Shown: positions 37,038 to 64,000 of the stretch, in pieces
How positions within the stretch are numbered: position 1 is the stretch's first letter
Layout of the letters: each line of letters starts with the position of its first letter
Source of the DNA: Polytrichum commune
Taxonomy: Eukaryota; Streptophyta; Polytrichopsida; Polytrichales; Polytrichaceae
Direction of reading: 5' to 3'
Length of the DNA: 64,000 bases
Assembly (NCBI GenBank): GCA_950295325.1
Contig: OX485806.1
Location: 23,622,001-23,686,000 of the forward strand
Translations under genes and position numbers: made by a program
The notes under the pieces: generated by a model
Seen by the model: the letters and a program-made list of their open reading frames with translations, nothing else
What the model was told of the DNA's origin: nothing
Database searches by the model: none

Positions 37038-39586
37038 GGGAGCCCGCGGGTGTGGCAGCAGGTTCTAGAGGTTTTTGTTGTTGCATTGGCGTTGATGCAA
37101 TCGGAGTGGCTGCAATGTGGAGCTGTTAGACCTCTGGTCTCCGACGCAGTGAAGAACGCTCAGCTGCCAGCTGCATATCACACATCTGCTGTCGCGGAAC
37201 ATGTTTCTGGCGACATGAACATCGAGATACGGTATGTAATCAATTTGACTGTGTGTAGAGTAGTAGTGTCCTGTGTAGATAGTTAGAATTAATAGATCGT
37301 CACCAAATGCGATCAGCATTGGAGCACTTCCGTAAGAAAGTAGAGCAGACGTAGAGGTTGAGCACTTCCACGTTAGAGCATTAATTTTTTTGCTTGAACA
37401 GATAGGTGGAGACATATAGATTTCTGCAGGCTCGTACAGAGGATTGTAGCCCCTTTCTTGCTCAGCAATGGTGGGACATTTCAGTAAAGAAAGCCATGCC
37501 TTCCTGCGATAAGCCTCTGGAAACAATGCCATCGCCATTTTTCTCTTCTAGCTTCTAATCGTGCAGTAAACCAATTATTTTTTGCCGCTCTCCCTTCTGA
37601 GAACGTCAGAGCTGCAATATCTATGGGCAGGCTCTCCTACATTACGAACCTTTCTTTCAGCAGGCATAGCTTGAAAGAAATTCAATGGCAAACATGTGAA
37701 GCGACATTGTTATCCATGAGTCCACAATCAATAAGAAGGAATCAGGACTGAGTATCCATTAACCTTCACCTTAGTCTCTAGATAAGCTTTGTAAATAATG
37801 TTCACTAACTTATAGGCTCGTGTATTCTTTCTTCGGCGTGCTCTAACTCTGATTATGTGCGTCGTCGGTCTTCTCAGAGTCTTTGCTCACTTGGAGTGTT
37901 TATCTTGTGATGCAGCGACGTGGAAAACATAACTCGCAGGCATCTGGGAGGCTGTGGAACCGGAAACCCCGTCGACGACTGCTGGAGGTGCAATGGGAAC
38001 TGGGAACAGAACCGGCAGTCTCTTGCAGATTGCGCCATTGGATTCGGGAAGAATGCAGTCGGTGGTAAAAACGGGCAAATCTACGTGGTGACTGACGACA
38101 GCGACGACGATGTCGTGAATCCCAAGGTAGGAACACTTCGCTATGGCGTCCTCCAGGCCGAGCCACTCTGGATTATATTTTCGCGCAACATGAACATCAA
38201 ACTCAAAGAGGAGCTCATCATGATGAGCTACAAGACCATCGATGGTCGTGGCCAGAATGTCCACATTGCCGGAGGGGCATGCTTAGTGATTCAGTTCGTG
38301 AGCAACATCATTGTTCACAACGTTCACATCCACGATTGTAAGTCAACAGGCCCTGCGACAGTGAGAAGTTCTCCATCGCACTTTGGCAGCCGAGGCAAAA
38401 CCGACGGAGATGCCATTTCCATCTTTGGATCACACGACATCTGGGTGGACCATTGTTATTTCGCCAACTGCGCTGATGGCCTTGTAGACGCCATCCAAGG
38501 TTCCACTGACATTACCGTCTCGAACAGCTACTTCGAGAATCATGATAAGGTGCGACCTGAAAATAATCTTTCACAGTCAGTAACGTCCTTCCCCATGCGG
38601 CCTATGCCAAAGTGTCGTGACCGTTTTGAAATCGTGAGCTAAATAATTTGTTTGCAGTTTTTTTCATTTTCGTTGTTAAGGCGGGGGGCTAAGTACATTG
38701 TGTCTGTGACCTTGCTACTCGATAACAATTTTTGTTCTCTTCGCGTAGAAACCTACACCTGGACTCTGGTTTGATATTTTCGTGCTGGTTCGGCACAGGT
38801 GATGTTGCTCGGTGCTCATCCACAAGATACAATGGACAACAACATGCAGGTTACCATTGCCTTCAACCACTTCGGGCAGAACCTCATTGAGCGCATGCCG
38901 AGGTAATAAAATATCAAACATATTATTGCGCTGTTTGCGTTGCAGAGGATCACAATCAGTTTCATATAGTCCATGCCTTGAATCTTTCATATAGTGATCT
39001 TTCGCTTTTCCCTAACTTTCAGATTTGAACTAATGCAGATGCCGACACGGAAAGTTTCACATCGTGAATAACAACTACCAGGAATGGGGAATGTATGCCA
39101 TTGGAGGGAGTGAGAACCCGACCATCAACAGCGAGGGAAACCGATTCTTCGCTTCCAATGACAGGAACTCGAAGGAGGTGAGCCCGCAGCTTTTCGGTGC
39201 ATATTCAAGTATTTGATATGCCTCCATGGATGAACATGATGATCTCCCATGTTCTTAGTGTAGTCCTTACTAGTAAGCCTACATGCTTATATGACTGTCG
39301 AGCCTTATACTATGTGACGACTACCTAGTTGTAATGAATAAATTCCTCTGTAATATAGGTCACCAAACGTATCAACGACGGAGGCCCCGGAAACGAAAAC
39401 AACTTCAACTGGAGGTCTTCTGGAGATCTCTTCTTGAACGGCGCTTTCTTCACCGCATCAGGAGCATCTGGCAGCTCTCAATTCTACGCGAAGGCTACCA
39501 GCTTTAGCGCTCGCCCGGCTTCTATGGTTGCGACCATGACTCTCGACGCAGGCCCCGTTGCTTGCACCTACGGAACCAGTTGCTGA
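37035..39586 (+). CDS. Pectate lyase (polysaccharide lyase family 1), five exons
   Basis: This secreted enzyme cleaves de-esterified homogalacturonan in the cell wall by calcium-dependent beta-elimination. Exons fitted to GT-AG junctions are 37035-37231, 37916-38549, 38799-38902, 39039-39177 and 39359-39586, which join in frame to 433 aa, normal for plant members. Residues 1-30 form a signal peptide with hydrophobic core VFVVALALM. Family motifs in order are [15 protein letters not shown], the calcium-site segment DGDAISIFG (residues 229-237) with WVDHC and [16 protein letters not shown], the Arg cluster ERMPRCRHG (308-316) at an exon junction, and [11 protein letters not shown]. All family hallmarks are present, so it is probably active. 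The start at 37035 is chosen because an upstream in-frame start would put an Arg-Glu repeat before the signal peptide. The next gene on the strand, a pectin methylesterase, acts on the same polymer. Confidence 0.95.
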
Positions 39587-45241: not shown

Positions 45242-48200
45242 ATGGACCACAGGTGCACTTTCCGCCTTGCTGTGGCGGCGTTTTGCATCGTCTACGGATG
45301 CATAGCCTTTGCTATGATCGAAGGCAGAGGAGTTTCTCCAAACATGTCATCATACATGCATCGTCCATTCGAAGGGCACGAGCCGTCGAAGCCGGCGCAA
45401 AGGGAGGATGACGACTTCATGAGCTGGGTGAGGAGGATGGGTGAAATTCATAGACAGAAGCAATTGTTGCTGCAGCGGCAATCTACTACTACTGAAGAAT
45501 ACTCAGGACGTGAGGGGGTGAGAAATCCAGTGGCGGCCATGACGTGGTTAGACTGGAAGCCCACAATGGTGACGCCCAAGACGCTTATCATCGTCGACCA
45601 GAATGGCAACGGCGACTTTCTCACCATAGCCGAGGCAATTAACTCAATACCACGAAACATGTATCGACCATACCGGGTCACAGTGCAGATCAATGCTGGT
45701 GTCTACCGGTAATATGCCGATCCATCAACATACATAGAACTCATGTATATATACATGGCTAACATAACATCACTATAATAGATGCAGGTTTGTTGAAATA
45801 CTTACAAGTTAAGCAGCAGAGTTTGTACATCACCTTGCAAATAAAGTTGTAATTCATGTGGTGTAGGGAGAAGATAGTGATACCGAAGAATAAGCCCATG
45901 GTGACGCTACAAGGATATGGGCAGCCCATGATCGATTGGAATGACGCGGCGTTCATGACATTCAACTCCACACTTGATAGTGCTACGGTGGGGATCAGCG
46001 GCGGCTACTTCATGGCGCGCAACATCACATTTCAGGTGAATACTTCTGCATTGAAAGATGTTAATACACATGCTTTGTCGACATGTTTTTGTCTCCCAGA
46101 GATGGATAGCCTCTTGACAATTCGGGCAAAGTGGAGTGTTATATTGGCTGTGAGAACATGTAGTATGCAATCTGGGTTGAAGATTCCTGGCTTTGCATGT
46201 AATAGAAATTCACAAATTTCTGTTTCATATATTGAGATTATTATGGAAAATGATCACTTCGAGAACATGTAATATGCAATATGGGTTGAATCATAGCTTG
46301 CATATAATAGAAATTCATAGCTTACATTTCTGCTTCACATATTGAGATTATTATGGAATATTTAGCGATCACTTTGACAACAGGTATGCAATGATGCAGA
46401 ACTCTGCGCCACAGCCGAGCGAAGGAGCGGTGCGGCACCAAGCTGTGGCGCTTCGTGTCTCGTCCGACCTTGCAGCTTTCTATGATTGCGCATTCATTGG
46501 TTACCAAGACACTTTGTATGACCACCACGGTCGCCATTACTTCAAAAACTGCTTCATCCAGGGCAACATTGACTTCATCTTCGGTGATGGCCTTTCCATC
46601 TACAAAGTAAGCGTCCAACCTAAGTCACAGAGAAAGGGGGGTGGGGAACTCATTGAAGGAAAACGAAATAATTGTGATCCAGTGTTACAGATGTGCACGA
46701 AAATGTCCTTGAAACCGCAATCTGCGGTCGTGTTCTCTGCGGCCCTTGATTTTGTGAGTGGGGACTCCTTAACCCCGGAACCTATGGGAAGTTGGAAATC
46801 TGAGGTTAAGTCGCCTAATGCCGGAATAGCGCTTGGATGGTTGAATTTCTTGACTTGATTTCTAGTGAATCTTATCTATTGTGGTCCACTCAATCAAAAT
46901 CATGGGGCCATCTGGATGAACCGGATATCTTCAATCAACCATGGGGGCTTGTCCTTGGGGAAGATAATTAAGTGTAGGCCAACTTATCTGGCGTTCACCT
47001 TTGATAGGAAGCAAGAACCCTTGAGGTCTCTCTATTTCTCGTGATGCCTGTTTCGATATGTATAATACACCCCTTGCACACGGCGAACGTCAGATGTTTC
47101 TGAACGTCAAGATCCTTCCTGCAAGTTGGGAAGCGACCTTTTGGTGCACTTTAACATTGGACGACCGAGAACGTTCGACGTCCGATTGCGGTGTACTACA
47201 TGGTTGTCGAACGTTTTGAACATTCGACGACTCTCAAAATATGATAATCAGATGAAAGACCAAATTATTGTCCTCGTCATAAATTCTGGCTTACGATTGG
47301 TGACAACGTATTGGTTTCTCATCCTCGTATCTGAGTCATGACTTTCTACCAGAACACTTTCACCTTTACCCAATCGTTGGACGTTTCGGAACGTTCGAAG
47401 TTTCAAAACTTTTTTGCACTCGTACTCGCACATGCACACGCAAATGCAACGATTGTCAACTCTATTGGTTTTGAAAACGTCTGACGTTTGGCGATTGCGA
47501 GCGGTGTATAATATTCAAGCTGATGGCAGCATCAAGTCATCACTTCCTCCTCTTTGAGCTAATGTTAAATAAGAAGCTCTCGGCTCACGTACCTTTTGTT
47601 AATATGTAGGGGTGCACCTTGAATGTCGTCCCATCCGGGTGGGGAGCAGTCGCGGCGCAGAAGAGGCAGAATGCAATCGAGAATACAGGATTCTCTTTTG
47701 TGATGTGCACCATTACAGGCTCTGCTGGTCAAGTCTACTTGGGGAGAGCGTGGGGGGCGTATTCTCGAGTTGTCTATTCCTACACCTACATGGCAGACAT
47801 CATCAACCAGCAGGGCTGGATGGACTGGGGCATCCCCGAGAGGCAATTGTGAGCCCCTCAAAACTCCTCCCTTCTTCAACCCTCTCCAAATTCTTTATCT
47901 TTCTGCAGCATTTCTTGAGCACTTTACAATATGGCCAAGGGGCTTTACTCCGAGATTGTGAGCTCATCCGAAATTGGTTTCACCATGGACAATTGGACAT
48001 GGGTTTTGTGTGGATACGGCCTCTAAGCGTCGTGTACAGACATACAAGCGGCCGGACTCTCCACTGAATGCTATTTCGTTACCATCCTATTCACGTACGA
48101 CTTGTTTTGGTCGGGAGTTGGTTGTTTTGCATACAACACTTTCCATGCTCAATAAGTTTTCGTGTTGAATGGAGTTTGTGTTTGAAGTTTTAACAAAGGA

Positions 48201-55831: not shown

Positions 55832-57001
55832 TTACCTGCGGCAAGCGATGCCGCCAGGAATGCCGTTGGGGAGGCCGCTGCTCCCGCACACGGCGTTGAA
55901 GCTGGGCATGGCGGAGCCTTCCTCGATGGCGGTGGCCGTGTACCGGCTCACCTTGCAGTCGGTCGCCAGGAGTGAGGAAGAGAAGAATTTGTCGGCCCCT
56001 CCCATGATGGGCATCACCACGCCCCTCTTGGTGGGGTTCACGAATCCGGGCTGGTACGTCTGGCCCAGCACCCCGTTCACCGACGACGACAGGTTGTGGA
56101 ATCGGAATTGCATGTCCAGGTGGGCGAAGCAGTCGTCGTCGGTGATCCCGTACCCGTGCCCGTCGCTCTCCTTCTTGCTGATGGGCACCACGCTCAATGC
56201 CACACCCATCTTCTCCCTGATTCTCACGTCCACCGTGTTGGCGGCGCCGATGCGCTCGAGCGTGACCAGCTCGTCGGCCGAAGTCCAGGAGGACATGGGC
56301 GCGTTCTCGATCTCCACGGCAACGCCGTCGTAAGAGAATTCCAGGTGGTCCACGCTGTTGTCCCATTTGGCCACGGGTTTAGCCGACACGGTGAGCGCGT
56401 GGGATCCGAAGACGAAGCCGAGAGCTTGCACCCACGTGAAGTCGCGGGGGCGGCCCTCGGGGCGCTTGCCGATGAAGTGGGCGTTGATGTGGAGGTCGCT
56501 GTCGGAGACGAGGCAGAAGTCCTGGTTCTTGCGGCCGTGGAAGTAGAACATCACACCATCGCCTCCCACGATGCGGGGGTCTCCGCACACACCACCGCGC
56601 TTCTTGCAACCCGCTGTCACAGTAGTTCATTGACAGATAGACAGCACAAAAACCATCGTCAGCGCCTTCACGTCAGCTTCCCATACAATTTCATGGAGAG
56701 TTAAACAGGCTGAACGATCTGTAATATGTATACATAGTGAGGTAAAATCGACTGCACATACAACCATTGTCCAAACTTGTTATCCATTAGAAATCTGAGT
56801 GGGATAGGTCGACCACATACGCTTCTTCTTCTTCCCGGCGTCGCCATCCTTGTCGGGGTTGTCTTTGCCTTTGCCTTTGGCTGCAGCAGTAGTAGCAGCA
56901 GTAGTAGCAGCAGCAGCGGCGGCGGCGGCGATGCCTGCTTGCATGAGCAGCATGCAGACTACCAGAGACAGGAGCAACAGCGAGGACTTCTTGGACTCCA
57001 T
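55832..57001 (-). CDS. Root_cap / LEA-related secreted protein, two exons
   Basis: Exon 1 is 57001-56821 and exon 2 is 56613-55832, with a 207-bp GT-AG intron (donor GTATGT, acceptor GACAG). They join in frame to 320 aa. The first ~25 residues are a signal peptide (LLLLSLVVCMLLMQAG). An Ala/Thr-rich then Lys/Asp-rich linker (GKGKDNPDKDGDAGKKKK) leads to the domain that starts with CKKRGGVCGDPR and IVGGDGVMFYFHGRK, continues with FCLVSDSDLHINAHFIG and RDFTWVQALGFVFGSH, and ends with FNAVCGSSGL and GIACRR. This order and the Cys positions match the plant Root_cap family (annotated as LEA-related), whose biochemical role is not established. The family is secreted, so a cell-wall or mucilage setting is likely. 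Start at 57001 is the only ATG giving the signal peptide. The coding region is GC-rich, which produces long shadow frames on both strands. Confidence 0.92.
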
Positions 57002-58480: not shown

Positions 58481-59669
58481 TGAATAACACACACCTATCT
58501 TACAAGGTTTTGGGGATCCCGTTGTGGGCTTCACATACACACCATACTTGGAATTTGTACCTTGGGAATATACATCTTGACATGATTGTTTGGGAGGTAC
58601 AGTTACGGAAGCTTGTAGTTTTGGAAGGTTATACTCCTTGACACCTGACACACAAAGTAGCTTGGAAAGAGTAACTTTGGTGAAGATTTCAAGTCATCAA
58701 GTGTAAAGAGAGATTACACACCTAGTATGAAACTGCTAAGAGTGTTTCACTTGGGCTTGGCTAATGGTTCCAAAAGTATAACAAAAGAATCTGCAAGTGA
58801 TGTCTGTCCTACATTACTTTGTTTCTATTTGTGAATCTTGGGCTCATATTACTTTGCACGTGTTCCGAAATGAGTTGATTTATCTTTGCACTAGAAGAAT
58901 GTTTTTTTCCAGTACAACCATTCATTGTGACTTGTCCGTCGCGACTCATGGTTAGAAAATGCATAAATAAATCATCTACCAACCAAAGGTTTTTAGTCGT
59001 GATTTATGAAGAACTAGCAACTAGAACCATCTGATGGGCAATCAAAATAATTTAATCATATACGCACTTATTTTTGCCACGAGTCGTAATGAACAAGTCA
59101 CAATGGATGGTTGTAATGGACAAATTTTCTTCAAGTCTCGGAGGCAAGATACTTATTGGAGGTACATTATCTCAATTGCCTAGGCAAGAGCTTTGTGGAG
59201 TATGTAAAGTTCTTATTTGTTCAAAGGTGAACTAGACGAAATAACCACTAGTATAGTTTGGTTTCATTAGTTTTGGACAACTTGACTACATAAATGACTT
59301 TAGAGGTCCCAATTTACATTAGTGGTCTAGAATGGATTGGTCCTCAATCCTATACTAGGGAGATCATTGGTTTACTTACAGCAACTTCATCCATGATGGA
59401 TGAGTTTCCATAGACACCACAACTTGTTTCATCCACATATCTAATTGTATGAATATATGGGCTATGGTAAACACAAGTCTCATATAAAACCTAGATAGAC
59501 GATTGATTCATTCCAATTAGACCCCACTAATTAAAACTCTAATTTGAGTACACAGCCCAATCTCATCATAACAAATGTATTTTGGGTGTCCGTTCTTAAC
59601 TATAAGCCAAATAGCCATGAACCACGCAAATCTTTTTAAGTCTCCAGACTATATAATCTCACATATATA
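58481..59669. other. Intergenic sequence up to the LINE junction
   Basis: No gene recognised. A partial repeat B fragment is at about 59510-59650. The LINE starts abruptly after ACATATATAG. Confidence 0.45.
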
Positions 59670-62600
59670 GATTTCCAGAATGCCTTTGGCTCCATAGACC
59701 ATGCCCGACTACTAGCCCTCATGGAAGACCTAGGCTTCCCAATGAACGCAATAGAAATAGTCGGAAACATCTACAAAAATTCTACCACGTCCTTCACCGG
59801 AAACCACTTCGGAACAACACCCCCAATCACGATTAGCCGGGGTACCATACAAGGGGATACCCTAAGCCCATACTTATTCATCATATTCCTCGAACCATTA
59901 CTAAGATGGTTGGAAAAAAAATAACATGGGATACCACTTTAACACCTCTATCTCCACATGTACCACCACCGCATACATGGACGACCTAGCAATAATCTCC
60001 GATAATATCAACCACATCCAACCACAAATACTTAAATTACAAAAATTTGCAGAATGGTCCCACATGGACCTCAACCTCGCCAAATGTGCCATTACGGGTT
60101 ACCCTAACAAATCAAAGTTCAAACCCAACACCTTCAAAGCATATATACAATCACAACACATCACATACAAAAATAAAAACTTCCCCATCCTCACACAAAA
60201 TGAACCATACACATACCTAGGTATACAATAAACAACATCACTCAAATGGCACCTACAAAAAGAAATTACCCTCCAAAAAGTCAAACAACAAAGTAAACTA
60301 CTCACCCTATCACCGGCTAGACTCAAGCAAAAAATTAAAATCTTAAAGATGGTCATTAAACCCCGCATCGCATACGCATATTACGCAGTCCCGTTCTCCA
60401 AACCTGATATCAAGAAAGTAGACAGAATAATTAGCAAATTAACCAAAAAAATATGCAATATCCCCAAAAGCACGGCCAACATACTAACACACCTCCCCAC
60501 GAACACTTTGGCATAAATGTAACCTCCTACTCCCGGACTACATCCAGTGCATAGGCCAACAACTAATACACGCCCTCAACAATCCCGGTCAAATCGGTAC
60601 TATCTACCAAGGATTAACTAAGTACATAACATCTAAATACGGAGGCTCACTTCACCTACAAGCAAACAACAAGCATATACAAGATCTCCCATAGCAAGAA
60701 TGCTCTTCCTACTAGAAAAGGAATATAAAATACACATTACCACCACAAACCGTGCATTCCCCATTAAAAAAAACCCCACTAGAACAAGCATGGAAATCCA
60801 ACCCAACATACCCCAATCTCCTAAACAATGACAAAAAAAAATCCCAAACGTACTTAGACAAACTATACATTCACGGAATCACAACATTAGAGCAAATCCA
60901 AAATAAAGACACTATGGCTATACTAAACCCCGAAGAATTCCAAACCATTTACAAAACCAAGTCTAAAACCATCAAAGCCGCATTACAACAAGCCACACTA
61001 TTATTCCCCCCCCCCCCACACCATCCCCTACACCACACACAAACCATATCCCAACACCACAACAATTACTCGCAAATAACATAATAGCCCCCAATCCTCC
61101 GTTGCAACCAATCCTAGGACAAACAATCCACACCAAAACTAATGATAAAATTACCACACGTAAAGACAAATGGGGTGCACAAGCCATCAAGAAAACATAC
61201 CTATGCCAATGGCAAACCACGCAAGGCAACACACAACAATGGCGCACGGAAGAGGACCTACTACACCCAGACAACATACTACTCGACCACAATCTACTCC
61301 TCATAACACAATACCAAAACAAAAAGAAGATACATAATACCACCCAAATATACACGGACTACCTTAAACACACCCAAACAAAAGACGCAAAATACATATG
61401 CCCCCTCTACAAATCACCAACCTCAAAACATACACACAGGAATGTAACCCTGATAAAGACATTATATGCCATAAACCAACCATTCAAATGCAAACCTTGG
61501 AATCCAACATATATGACTCAAATGGAAGACACATAGCCACCATCACTACGGAAAGACTACAATGGTTATGGAATCAATTCACTCACAACAACTCCCCACA
61601 ACTAACCAACTTCCTACAACCACCCCCACAAGACTTTGAAACCGAAATACTATGGCTTATGCAAAGATACATATCTATACTCCCCAAGAAAAAACCCAAA
61701 AATATCCAACCACACAACCGGCACCACACACTGCATCCAGAAATCACCAAATCACTAATTGAATCATTTAAAATCACACACTCCTATTATTCATCACCTC
61801 TCACCTGCCCCACCCAACTTACACACTATAGCTCACCTCATAACCGAGATATGCTATTCGGCTCTCTGGGAAGAGCACAATCATCAAGATGGGAAGGCAT
61901 AGGCATGGCATTCCCCCCGAACCATAATACAACCTTAGAAGCCATCCATTGGGCTAGGATGGCCGCCAAAGAAGATACACAAACAAGCACTTTACTCATA
62001 GTCAACCACGACGAATGGACGTCACAACAACTCCCACTCACAAACAACATAGACATCCACATCATAGCAACCATCCCACCACACACTATACAATACAACC
62101 CCACACCAGAATGGCCCCAATACTACCAACATACGGAACCATCACTCACATCCATCATATATATACACAACCAAGAGAATCCAACAATAAACTCTCAAAC
62201 ACCACATGAACTACAAGGAATACTCAAGAAGATAACAAACATACATATAGACATTAACCCGATCAAGCCTACAATCCCACACTACAATGTTAAATTCTCC
62301 AATGCATGGAAAAACGCCCCCAAAATCAACACCATTACTCATAACCACACCACACCAACATCACCCCTGCCCACCCCTGCCCACCACATACAACCACATC
62401 CATCCCCTCAAATACCCACCACAACAATGTATATACACGGATGGCTCATTCATCCCACCCTCCCAGAACTCCGAAGGCCAAATAGTGGGCAATATTGCAG
62501 GCTCAGGGGTATATAGTCCATACAAGAATACCCGAATTTCGGAAAGATTACATGGCTACCCAAATATCCTAAGAGTAGAGCTCAACGCAATACTCATTGC

Positions 62601-64000
62601 AACTCAAAATATATACACAACACACAACAAGATACATACATATTCACAGATAGCCTCAACAACACATATTTAATCAAGAACCATATACAACACCCAACAT
62701 CCCAACACCATCACCCAAATAAATTACTCATAGCAGCCATCGTACGACAAATATATTGGACCTCAAACACAATCTACATACACAAAGTAAGAGCACACAC
62801 GGGCATTAGCGGCAACGAAATAGCGGACACACTAGCCAACGAAGGAACACTAAAAGAGAAACTAGACACAACCCCACACATACACATAGCCCACACTACC
62901 CCCTACTGGCTAGCAAGTTGCCCAACAGCCACACACGACGGAGCCATACGCAACTTAAGAACATTCATAACAAAAACACATGAAAATCAAGAAGCCACAC
63001 TAGCCAAAAGTAAATTCTCATATGTTGACAAATGGCTCTCAAACGAACGAATCAACCAAAAACTCTCCAACCACTTCTGGAAAAATACAAATATCCCAGA
63101 TACCCAAATTACCCAAACTCTAAAATTTAGATACGCCCAATACATGGGTAACCATAGGAAAAATATTTTATGGCCCCTCACCTTCCCAAACCCAAATTGC
63201 ACACTTTGTCGCAATAACGACAGAGACACGTGGCCACACTTACTATCAACATGCGAGCACTCGTATCTCAAAGGATTAAGAATTGCAAGACACAACAAAG
63301 TAACACATCTCATTACCCACACACTACAAGCCAACAAAAATACCAAATTCTACACCTTGACAAACGTTGGTAACCTAAACAACCAACCCCAGGACCCCAC
63401 AGTTCTAGAATGGCTCCTAAAATGCACATGCCCTCAACACCCCTGCCAATGCCACGCCAAATTAAGACCCGACATCCTTTGCATAATTGGCGCCCCCAAT
63501 CAAACACAAACACCTATCTCACCCTCCACAAATTACACGGTACAATTCATAGAATTTACCTACTGCCATGACAGATTCCCGGAGCAAGCCATAACACACA
63601 AACACACCAAATACGACCCTCTAATCCACAACGTACAAAATACTGGATGGCAAACCAATCCCCTCATCACAATCACTGCTGGAGTAAGAGGGGCCATCCA
63701 TGAACACTCTATCGAACAACTCCACAAACTTAAAATCTCAAGGTCTAGCATTAAAACACTCATGAAGAACTTACACCAAAATGCCATCAAATACCTCACC
63801 TACCTAGTCCTAAACAAAAGGAAACTTGATAACAAACAAATCCCTGTCCCCCCTCCCAAGAGAGAAATTGACCTAAGTTACACCACTGGAGCCCACCTCC
63901 CAAAGAGGCATAACGCCCCATACTGCATCATGGGTAACATGATCAGTATCGGGCTAACGGGCTCCCATTCATGCCGGTACATGGTACAGGCGTTATTTTT
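59670..64000 (+). pseudogene. 5'-truncated non-LTR retrotransposon: RT, PCIF1-like domain, RNase H, CCHC, restriction-like endonuclease
   Basis: Coding blocks share one orientation but are broken by at least six small shifts and a stop. In order: RT block A DFQNAFGSIDH at 59670, GTIQGDTLSPYLF near 59840, AYMDD at 59971-59985, YLGIQ then a stop at 60229-60231; a thumb region to about 60700; a linker; a central domain (61398-62280) with FGSLGRAQSSRWEG; RNase H with D (62440), E (62578), D (62649) and D (62826); a CCHC finger, C-x2-C-x9-H-x4-C, at 63198-63254; and an endonuclease-like block with RPD (63465) and FIEFTYC (63546). Shifts fall at homopolymers, e.g. A8 at 59911 and C11 near 61007. 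The 5' part, including any N-terminal endonuclease, is missing. The right end lies beyond the window. CCHC plus RLE marks R2/CRE/Dualen-type LINEs, and RNase H with RLE is known from Dualen. Confidence 0.85.
62640..64000 (+). CDS. Open C-terminal frame of the LINE: RNase H end, CCHC finger, restriction-like endonuclease
   Basis: From the last frameshift (near 62640) to the window edge there is no stop, about 450 codons. The frame starts at YIFTDSLNN (third RNase H acidic residue), then HTGISGNEIADTLANEG (fourth), then the CCHC finger CTLCRNNDRDTWPHLLSTC, and a second Cys cluster KCTCPQHPCQCH (63420-63456). The endonuclease-like region follows: RPDILCI, VQFIEFTYCHD, a THKHTKYDPL helix and ITITAGVRGAIHE. 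PD...E-x-T followed by K-x-x-K-Y and a G-A/V-R-G segment is the layout of R2-type nucleases. No own start codon is expected, since this is the 3' part of a longer polyprotein. Its continuation lies outside the window. Confidence 0.8.
   Translation, partial: MFTDSLNNTYLIKNHIQHPTSQHHHPNKLLIAAIVRQIYWTSNTIYIHKVRAHTGISGNEIADTLANEGTLKEKLDTTPHIHIAHTTPYWLASCPTATHDGAIRNLRTFITKTHENQEATLAKSKFSYVDKWLSNERINQKLSNHFWKNTNIPDTQITQTLKFRYAQYMGNHRKNILWPLTFPNPNCTLCRNNDRDTWPHLLSTCEHSYLKGLRIARHNKVTHLITHTLQANKNTKFYTLTNVGNLNNQPQDPTVLEWLLKCTCPQHPCQCHAKLRPDILCIIGAPNQTQTPISPSTNYTVQFIEFTYCHDRFPEQAITHKHTKYDPLIHNVQNTGWQTNPLITITAGVRGAIHEHSIEQLHKLKISRSSIKTLMKNLHQNAIKYLTYLVLNKRKLDNKQIPVPPPKREIDLSYTTGAHLPKRHNAPYCIMGNMISIGLTGSHSCRYMVQALF

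Follow-up and report, generated by a model that had tools for sequence, protein, structure and literature searches.

Long interspersed nuclear elements (LINEs) of the Dualen/RandI type, reportedly described by Kojima and Fujiwara in 2005, combine an apurinic-like endonuclease (APE) and a restriction-like endonuclease (RLE) in one element and add an RNase H; their reverse transcriptases branch between those of the RLE and APE groups, and a cysteine protease is also known from Dualen, whether or not it is clade-defining. R2-type LINEs carry an RLE with the residues RHNK, PD, E and KX2KY and a CCHC finger, while DIRS-type retrotransposons, which are tyrosine-recombinase elements, carry a DAM-like methyltransferase domain whose role is unclear. 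APE-type LINEs with 2A peptides were, going by the title, reportedly described by Odon et al. in 2013. Papers are cited here by PMC number, each for the portions that were available. Dualen/RandI elements are mentioned in PMC4640811 and, for green algae, in PMC8226300; the RLE of LINEs is defined by KX2KY with a catalytic K and by conserved RH and PD, and LINEs in general are known to copy themselves by target-primed reverse transcription (PMC5678591). PCIF1/CAPAM, a cap-adenosine N6-methyltransferase, requires the motif NPPF and is inactivated by changes of N553 and F556 (PMC10544176); the Pfam family PF12237 is a CAPAM-like methyltransferase family and not a WW domain (PMC7641849), and PCIF1-related enzymes were reported in phages (PMC7824862). 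The present analysis concerns a non-long-terminal-repeat (non-LTR) retrotransposon at the end of a 64,000-nucleotide stretch of Polytrichum commune DNA, called the window (C4:23622001-23686000 in an assembly that comprises 64 contigs and 408 Mb), and the relatives of this element elsewhere in the genome.

The element was found to share with Dualen/RandI an APE and an RLE in one element plus an RNase H, and it was placed with that type because the three occur together; it differed by a PCIF1-like domain between the reverse transcriptase (RT) and the RNase H and by a 2A-like peptide before the APE. With R2 it shared the finger and the nuclease residues, and its RT was nearest to R2 among solved structures, whereas two endonucleases, an RNase H, an upstream open reading frame (ORF) and seven duplications that show no fixed target site set it apart. 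With PCIF1/CAPAM it shared PF12237 and an alignment running through the catalytic loop; unlike that enzyme it has NPPF replaced, had no WW domain reported alongside the PF12237 domain, and belongs to a protein encoded by a retrotransposon. DIRS-type elements are likewise retroelements with a methyltransferase-like domain, though of another methyltransferase family and with a tyrosine recombinase, and the APE-type LINEs with 2A share the NPGP peptide and the APE, whereas the plant element also has the RLE block. A preliminary description of this DNA, made from the letters alone, had read it as a plant Dualen-like or new-clade element with an extra central domain. That reading appears largely right: the assignment to non-LTR elements, with an RNase H and a block of RLE type, stood, an APE was found in the relatives, and the extra domain was real, but its identity as a PCIF1/CAPAM-like methyltransferase domain had been missed. 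The furthest-reaching interpretation considered is that a plant Dualen-type LINE captured a cap-methyltransferase domain, which lost its standard chemistry and was selected as a reader of the element's own capped 5' end; a probability of roughly 0.35 is given to this whole. With the role of the central domain set aside, the family, the anatomy and the way of copying are jointly held with good confidence.

The central domain of the window copy matched PF12237 (listed as PCIF1_WW) at 4.8e-9, with 36.5 bits against a cut-off of 31.1 bits, and at 1.2e-8 in a longer frame. All nine aligned copies of the domain matched the same family (E up to 1, best 8.1e-14), while none of five scrambled versions of the window domain did. 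A profile of the domain retrieved only PCIF1 chains from the PDB (E up to 1), and the alignment spanned the catalytic loop. By sequence comparison the central domain is judged truly homologous to PCIF1/CAPAM. The methyltransferase-like domain was followed by the RNase H in all 32 loci L001-L032 and preceded by the linker in 31 of them, none being seen in L001. Most of these loci had been selected for carrying the domain; L002 and L022 represent a single place, and the window copy lies in L028. Literature searches judged by title and the opening of the abstract gave no paper that places a PCIF1, CAPAM or PF12237 domain in a retrotransposon; the adenine-methyltransferase survey that Iyer and co-workers published in 2016 lay outside the coverage and may contain prior notice.

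Genome searches showed that the family is large, abundant and recently active. With PF12237, all 150 scored places (the best 150 of 697 candidates) matched over the cut-off; with the window's own domain, all 147 scored places (the best 147 of 2478 candidates) matched, namely the window copy itself and others at 59-88% identity. Because the two lists share no place, at least 297 places bear the domain. Two subfamilies, A and B, can be told apart among the copies, and the window copy is a member of B. The two are 41% identical in the methyltransferase-like domain (window against L021, a copy of subfamily A) and 72% and 52% identical in two RT pieces of the same pair. Scans of viral contigs with the window proteins gave one stretch that matched a pattern, not confirmed by tblastn, and no relatives. 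At C6:30013837-30746615, five near-identical domain matches with the same stops lie 67-253 kb apart, which points to multiplication of a single dead copy through large local duplication.

Reading of the catalytic loop showed that the Asn of NPPF was absent in all 40 loops read, out of 42 distinct copies fetched. The loops were HPHN (19), HPHT (7), HPPN (2), FPTD (9), FPPN (1, the window copy), FPPD (1) and FPPG (1); in the remaining two copies, L008 and L014, a stop lies next to the loop, which reads AHPH as well. Exact patterns run across the genome found the His form of subfamily A 301 times and its Asn form not once, and the Phe form of subfamily B 57 times with no match to a slightly looser Asn form; backwards-pattern controls gave no match. 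These patterns need flanking residues and skip very common words, so that an occasional Asn copy could exist in a different context. Standard adenine N6 chemistry of the central domain is unlikely because the catalytic Asn is replaced, by His in A and by Phe in B. A working methyltransferase of altered chemistry, whose HPHN/HPHT and FPTD loops methylate RNA, DNA or some other target, was the main rival and was considered rather doubtful. In its favour, SSP-TC, SP--RD--FG--G and W-G-G-A-P around the loop were invariant in nine of nine aligned copies, as if a ligand pocket had been kept, and both subfamilies retained a defined loop and not random decay; against it stand the loss of PCIF1 activity on changing N553 and F556 of NPPF, the missing Asn, and the fourth place of the loop, which holds N, T, D or G and no aromatic residue. 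In the preferred though tentative reading, the domain would have been captured from a cap methyltransferase, would have given up PCIF1's standard N6-adenine chemistry and would instead serve as a repurposed module that binds the element's own transcript at its capped 5' end or at RNA near the cap. A catalytic-dead Drosophila Pcif1 is said, by the title of the report, to regulate gene expression, which would be a precedent for non-catalytic use.

Ratios of nonsynonymous to synonymous substitution (dN/dS), computed in subfamily A only, showed purifying selection. They were 0.09-0.23 for the methyltransferase-like domain (nine pairs), 0.05-0.21 for the APE (five), 0.06-0.11 for the RT (five), 0.06-0.24 for the RNase H (seven), 0.09-0.14 for the RLE region (four of five pairs, one saturated) and 0.09-0.29 for the linker (five of six, one saturated). 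In distant pairs dS is high, which makes the values of those pairs approximate; comparison of L021 with its close partners L024 and L031 gave 0.14 and 0.09. That the domain only bridges the RT and the C-terminal nuclease as a scaffold, or persists as a relic, is unlikely: it does sit within a long linker region, and the adjoining linker has similar ratios, but a mere relic fits poorly with values well below 1 and with motif residues invariant in two subfamilies; a scaffold role is still conceivable.

The complete anatomy was read from relatives. The adjoining stretches L033 and L021 formed a single open frame of 2924 codons, of which the first ~500 may be non-coding. The order in ORF2 was a 2A-like NPGP peptide, APE, RT, linker, PCIF1-like domain, RNase H, CCHC finger and RLE. 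In the L021 frame (from codon 201) Pfam reported RT at 1.2e-29, RNase H at 3.2e-12 and PF12237 at 1.3e-10; the RNase H of a second intact frame scored 2.9e-12, and a cysteine protease was not among the matches (E up to 0.1) in this frame or that of L023. The window copy is truncated before the APE region, so that the APE is known from relatives only: L029 matched Exo_endo_phos_2 at 3.3e-9 and is 66% identical to the L021 stretch, and the APE catalytic motifs were kept in five of five aligned relatives. Exo_endo_phos_2 matched 150 scored genome places over the cut-off, and for 72 of these listed matches a PCIF1-like match lay 2.5-6.5 kb downstream in the same orientation (20 from the A list, 52 from the B list), while none of the 150 had one upstream; because both lists hold best candidates only, the other 78 APE matches count neither way. 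An APE profile found no PDB chain at 0.001. In the subfamily-B copy L052, HGDIELNPGP precedes the APE, and the APE and PCIF1-like matches are both listed within one frame of 2422 codons. Upstream of ORF2 the copies F21-F25 carried a further ORF, whose length ranged from 747 to at least 1492 codons, and Pfam gave nothing above the cut-off for the one copy scanned (L033).

In all 11 relatives the stretch preceding the APE held the 2A-like peptide, GDI[E/K/H]xNPGP, with E in six, K in four near-identical copies and H in one; L021, L022, L024, L029 and L031 are among the carriers, and together with L052 this places such a peptide in a plant LINE of both subfamilies. The 2A/StopGo core is (D/G/C/N)(V/I)ExNPGP, with H as a rare active variant; the K form is absent from the variants listed in the available part of that source, which also reports no evidence of natural 2A use in plant viruses (PMC12846837).

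In the window copy, the RT, the acidic residues of RNase H, the CCHC finger and the RLE-type block named in the preliminary description were all present in one orientation, on the + strand. The copy enters just before RT motif A, with the RT in two overlapping frames, and the D, E, D, H and D positions of RNase H were readable across one frameshift (YTDGSF, RVELN, FTDSLN, RAHTG, EIAD). An RNase H between the RT and the CCHC/RLE region had been called unusual; downstream of the RT is its ordinary place, and the Utopia RNase H, upstream of the RT, is the arrangement called unique (PMC4640811). An RT falling firmly in an ordinary L1 or RTE clade had been named as the outcome that would overturn the Dualen-like reading; among PDB structures an RT profile of five subfamily-A copies, the window copy excluded, scored R2 (1.8e-31) above L1 (1.4e-18). 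In the C-terminal block, six of six aligned copies kept PDI, E and KX2KY unchanged, with R or K in front of PD, and RHNK was also readable in the window copy along with the CCHC and RLE motifs. KX2KY, RH and PD, as described for the LINE RLE, were found, and on its motifs the block is assigned as a putative RLE. In the cysteine cluster CxCx4CxC between the finger and this block, L031 has CAC for CTC, a difference between the cysteines.

Several observations weigh against the reading set out so far. The finger spacing CX2CX9HX4C, the same in six of six copies, exceeds the published CX2-3CX7-8HX4C by one residue, and the GXW beyond the fourth strand was not seen; a GW is conserved instead in the aligned copies, its correspondence uncertain. 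There was no Pfam match in the RLE block, and the CCHC/RLE region gave only weak unrelated names below the cut-off. A C-terminal block with no match to RLE profiles had been the second outcome named as overturning the earlier reading; neither of the two outcomes occurred. A CCHC/RLE profile run against the PDB (E up to 5) matched R2 and nothing else, weakly (E = 2) and over the stretch from CCHC to RHNK, missing the nuclease core. Pfam (E up to 0.1) reported no APE in the L021 and L023 frames, where its presence is deduced from similarity to L029. The PDB matches to PCIF1 were weak alone (0.031 and 0.1), and single window proteins found no PCIF1 in the PDB (one search gave unrelated chains at 0.38 or worse, the other none). 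The methyltransferase-like domain is kept, but no tighter than the neighbouring domains or the linker, and this was seen in subfamily A only. An ordinary LINE with an RLE or an APE alone, and chance motifs at the other end, would suit the lack of a Pfam match in the RLE block and the lack of an APE report in two of three frames scanned; it is made very improbable by the 72 of 150 listed APE matches at a set distance upstream of the methyltransferase-like domain, by the PDI, E and KX2KY residues invariant in every aligned copy and by the low dN/dS of the RLE region. A spurious PF12237 match, born of the strong A/C-rich coding bias (A 38%, C 29% and G 11% in the L021 ORF2) and in keeping with a PDB match that is weak alone, is hardly credible beside the failure of the scrambled controls to match, the matches of nine divergent copies and the PDB matches to PCIF1 only.

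Marks of retrotransposition were found at both ends of the copies. Exact tail repeats of 11-14 bp were found in six of 11 relatives (F22 14, F23 11, F24 12, F25 12, F26 13 and F27 12 bp); F29, F32 and F21, the 5' end of which lies outside the DNA compared, gave no repeat, and F30 and F31 had only 10-bp matches away from the tail. The repeats of F23, F26 and F27 fall at most 7 bp from the start of similarity to F21. Lengths reckoned from these ends were 12.5-13.5 kb for four copies and ~7.6 kb for two truncated ones. Recent copying was evident from F21 and F23, which are 99.67% identical over 13.3 kb. The tails carry short repeats, TATC or TTC in subfamily A and TTTTC in the window copy. A fixed target site was not supported because the seven duplications (six relatives and the window copy) differ. 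Variable 5' truncation, target-site duplications and the absence of terminal repeats were all observed, as in non-LTR elements. In F24 and F25 (L036/L024 and L037/L025), which are 99% identical over 10.7 kb, the 5' ends inside the duplications seem unrelated: over the outermost 1.8-2.0 kb the two copies show no alignment, and the ends rest on the 12-bp repeats alone, as if the 5' regions had been exchanged or the ends misjudged.

The 3' end of the element RNA showed a conserved fold. The last 111-126 nt folded better than shuffled sequences in five of five cases (z-scores -3.4, -3.4, -4.0 and -6.7, and -5.0 for the window copy), and the layout was common to A and B: an outer stem around two hairpins, ATTCA, GCCGG or CCGG, and a terminal hairpin. 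Across seven aligned sequences 90.5% of cells could pair, and eight of 41 pairs changed on both sides, against at most 43.8% pairing and four pairs in slid versions of the structure; the reference structure came from one of the seven sequences, which favours the result, and the window copy aligns poorly in mid-structure. On four of five measures none of 500 shuffles reached the observed value; the remaining measure, further pair types, was equalled by 457 of the 500. In the 3' untranslated region of subfamily A (L021 8173-8460; likewise L022, L024 and L031) an antisense, TTCGA-type stretch resembling a tRNA arm was seen by eye. A tRNA-like segment found no support: ARAGORN (bacterial settings) found no tRNA in seven loci and Rfam nothing relevant in five.

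The action of each enzyme in the element is deduced from its sequence, and the following course is proposed. The ORF2 protein would bind the structured 3' end of its own RNA, the handle of the RT; an endonuclease would nick the target, and the RT would copy the RNA by target-primed reverse transcription. The two nucleases may divide the first and second cuts between them, the RNase H would remove the RNA template, and the second cut would leave the duplications of 11-15 bp. The PCIF1-like domain may grip the element's transcript by its capped 5' end or by RNA close to the cap, favouring cis-preference or full-length copying. If this is true, the RT gains a handle on both ends of the template. 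It has long been asked how LINE proteins recognise their own RNA and copy it as far as its 5' end, and a cap-methyltransferase-like domain kept in two divergent subfamilies would offer a testable physical link to the transcript 5' end. Such a domain suggests borrowing, by a selfish element, of some of the cellular cap machinery, and PCIF1-like domains, described in the available portions of the sources as cellular or phage proteins, would extend to retrotransposons. The genome also supplies nearly identical long-frame copies of a rare dual-endonuclease LINE type in a plant.

The window copy, on the + strand, is a decayed, 5'-truncated non-LTR retrotransposon that ends 12 bases past the window (L028:6001-6012), equivalent to window positions 59651-64012; the start at 59670 given earlier was corrected accordingly. 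The perfect direct repeat flanking the copy (TTAAGTCTCCAGACT) has its 3' member directly after the T-rich tail, and in 2000 shuffles of the flanks none gave a match of 14 bp or more. Strand composition breaks sharply near 59650: inside the element the GC skew is -0.3 to -0.6 and the AT skew mostly +0.24 to +0.49, the coding strand being A/C-rich and G-poor. All ten window pieces aligned in order to the 2924-codon frame of L021, one of them also matching weakly out of order (7e-4). The composition break and the ordered alignment make the element more than chance. The copy is dead because it carries at least seven frame changes or stops. The coordinates of its features are collected in Table 1.

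Table 1. Features of the retrotransposon copy, in window coordinates
Feature	Position	Strand	Details	Evidence
Non-LTR retrotransposon copy	59651..64000	+	5'-truncated, decayed	15-bp duplication; ordered alignment to 2924-codon frame; composition break
5' target-site duplication	59636..59650	+	TTAAGTCTCCAGACT; 3' copy at L028:6013-6027	Exact 15-bp match
Reverse transcriptase, motif A onward	59658..60228	+	Two frames; AYMDD at 59971	Pfam RVT_1 2.4e-10 and 3e-8; translation
Post-RT linker	60232..61478	+	Several frames	Pieces align in order to L021 linker, 29-51% identity
PCIF1/CAPAM-like methyltransferase domain (putative)	61479..62252	+	One clean frame; loop AFPPN 61908-61922	Pfam PF12237; PCIF1 in PDB by profile
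RNase H	62404..62852	+	Frameshift between 62598 and 62622	Pfam RNase_H 6.7e-7 (second, larger part) and only 0.095 (first, smaller part); motif residues
CCHC finger	63198..63254	+	CX2CX9HX4C	C, C, H, C invariant in 6/6 copies; translation
Second cysteine cluster	63423..63452	+	CxCx4CxC, just upstream of nuclease block	Cysteines invariant in 5 or 6/6 copies, by eye
Restriction-like endonuclease block (putative)	63465..63680	+	RPDI 63465, E 63552, KHTKY 63600-63614	Motifs; definition in available part of PMC5678591
Structured 3' end of element RNA	63885..63995	+	Subfamily A has same layout, other stem sequences	z-score -5.0 (window copy)

Elsewhere in the window, plant genes or gene pieces of the pectate lyase, pectinesterase and root-cap families were observed (37911-38642, 46346-46858 and 55832-56626), and because of these neighbouring genes the host was recognised as a plant.

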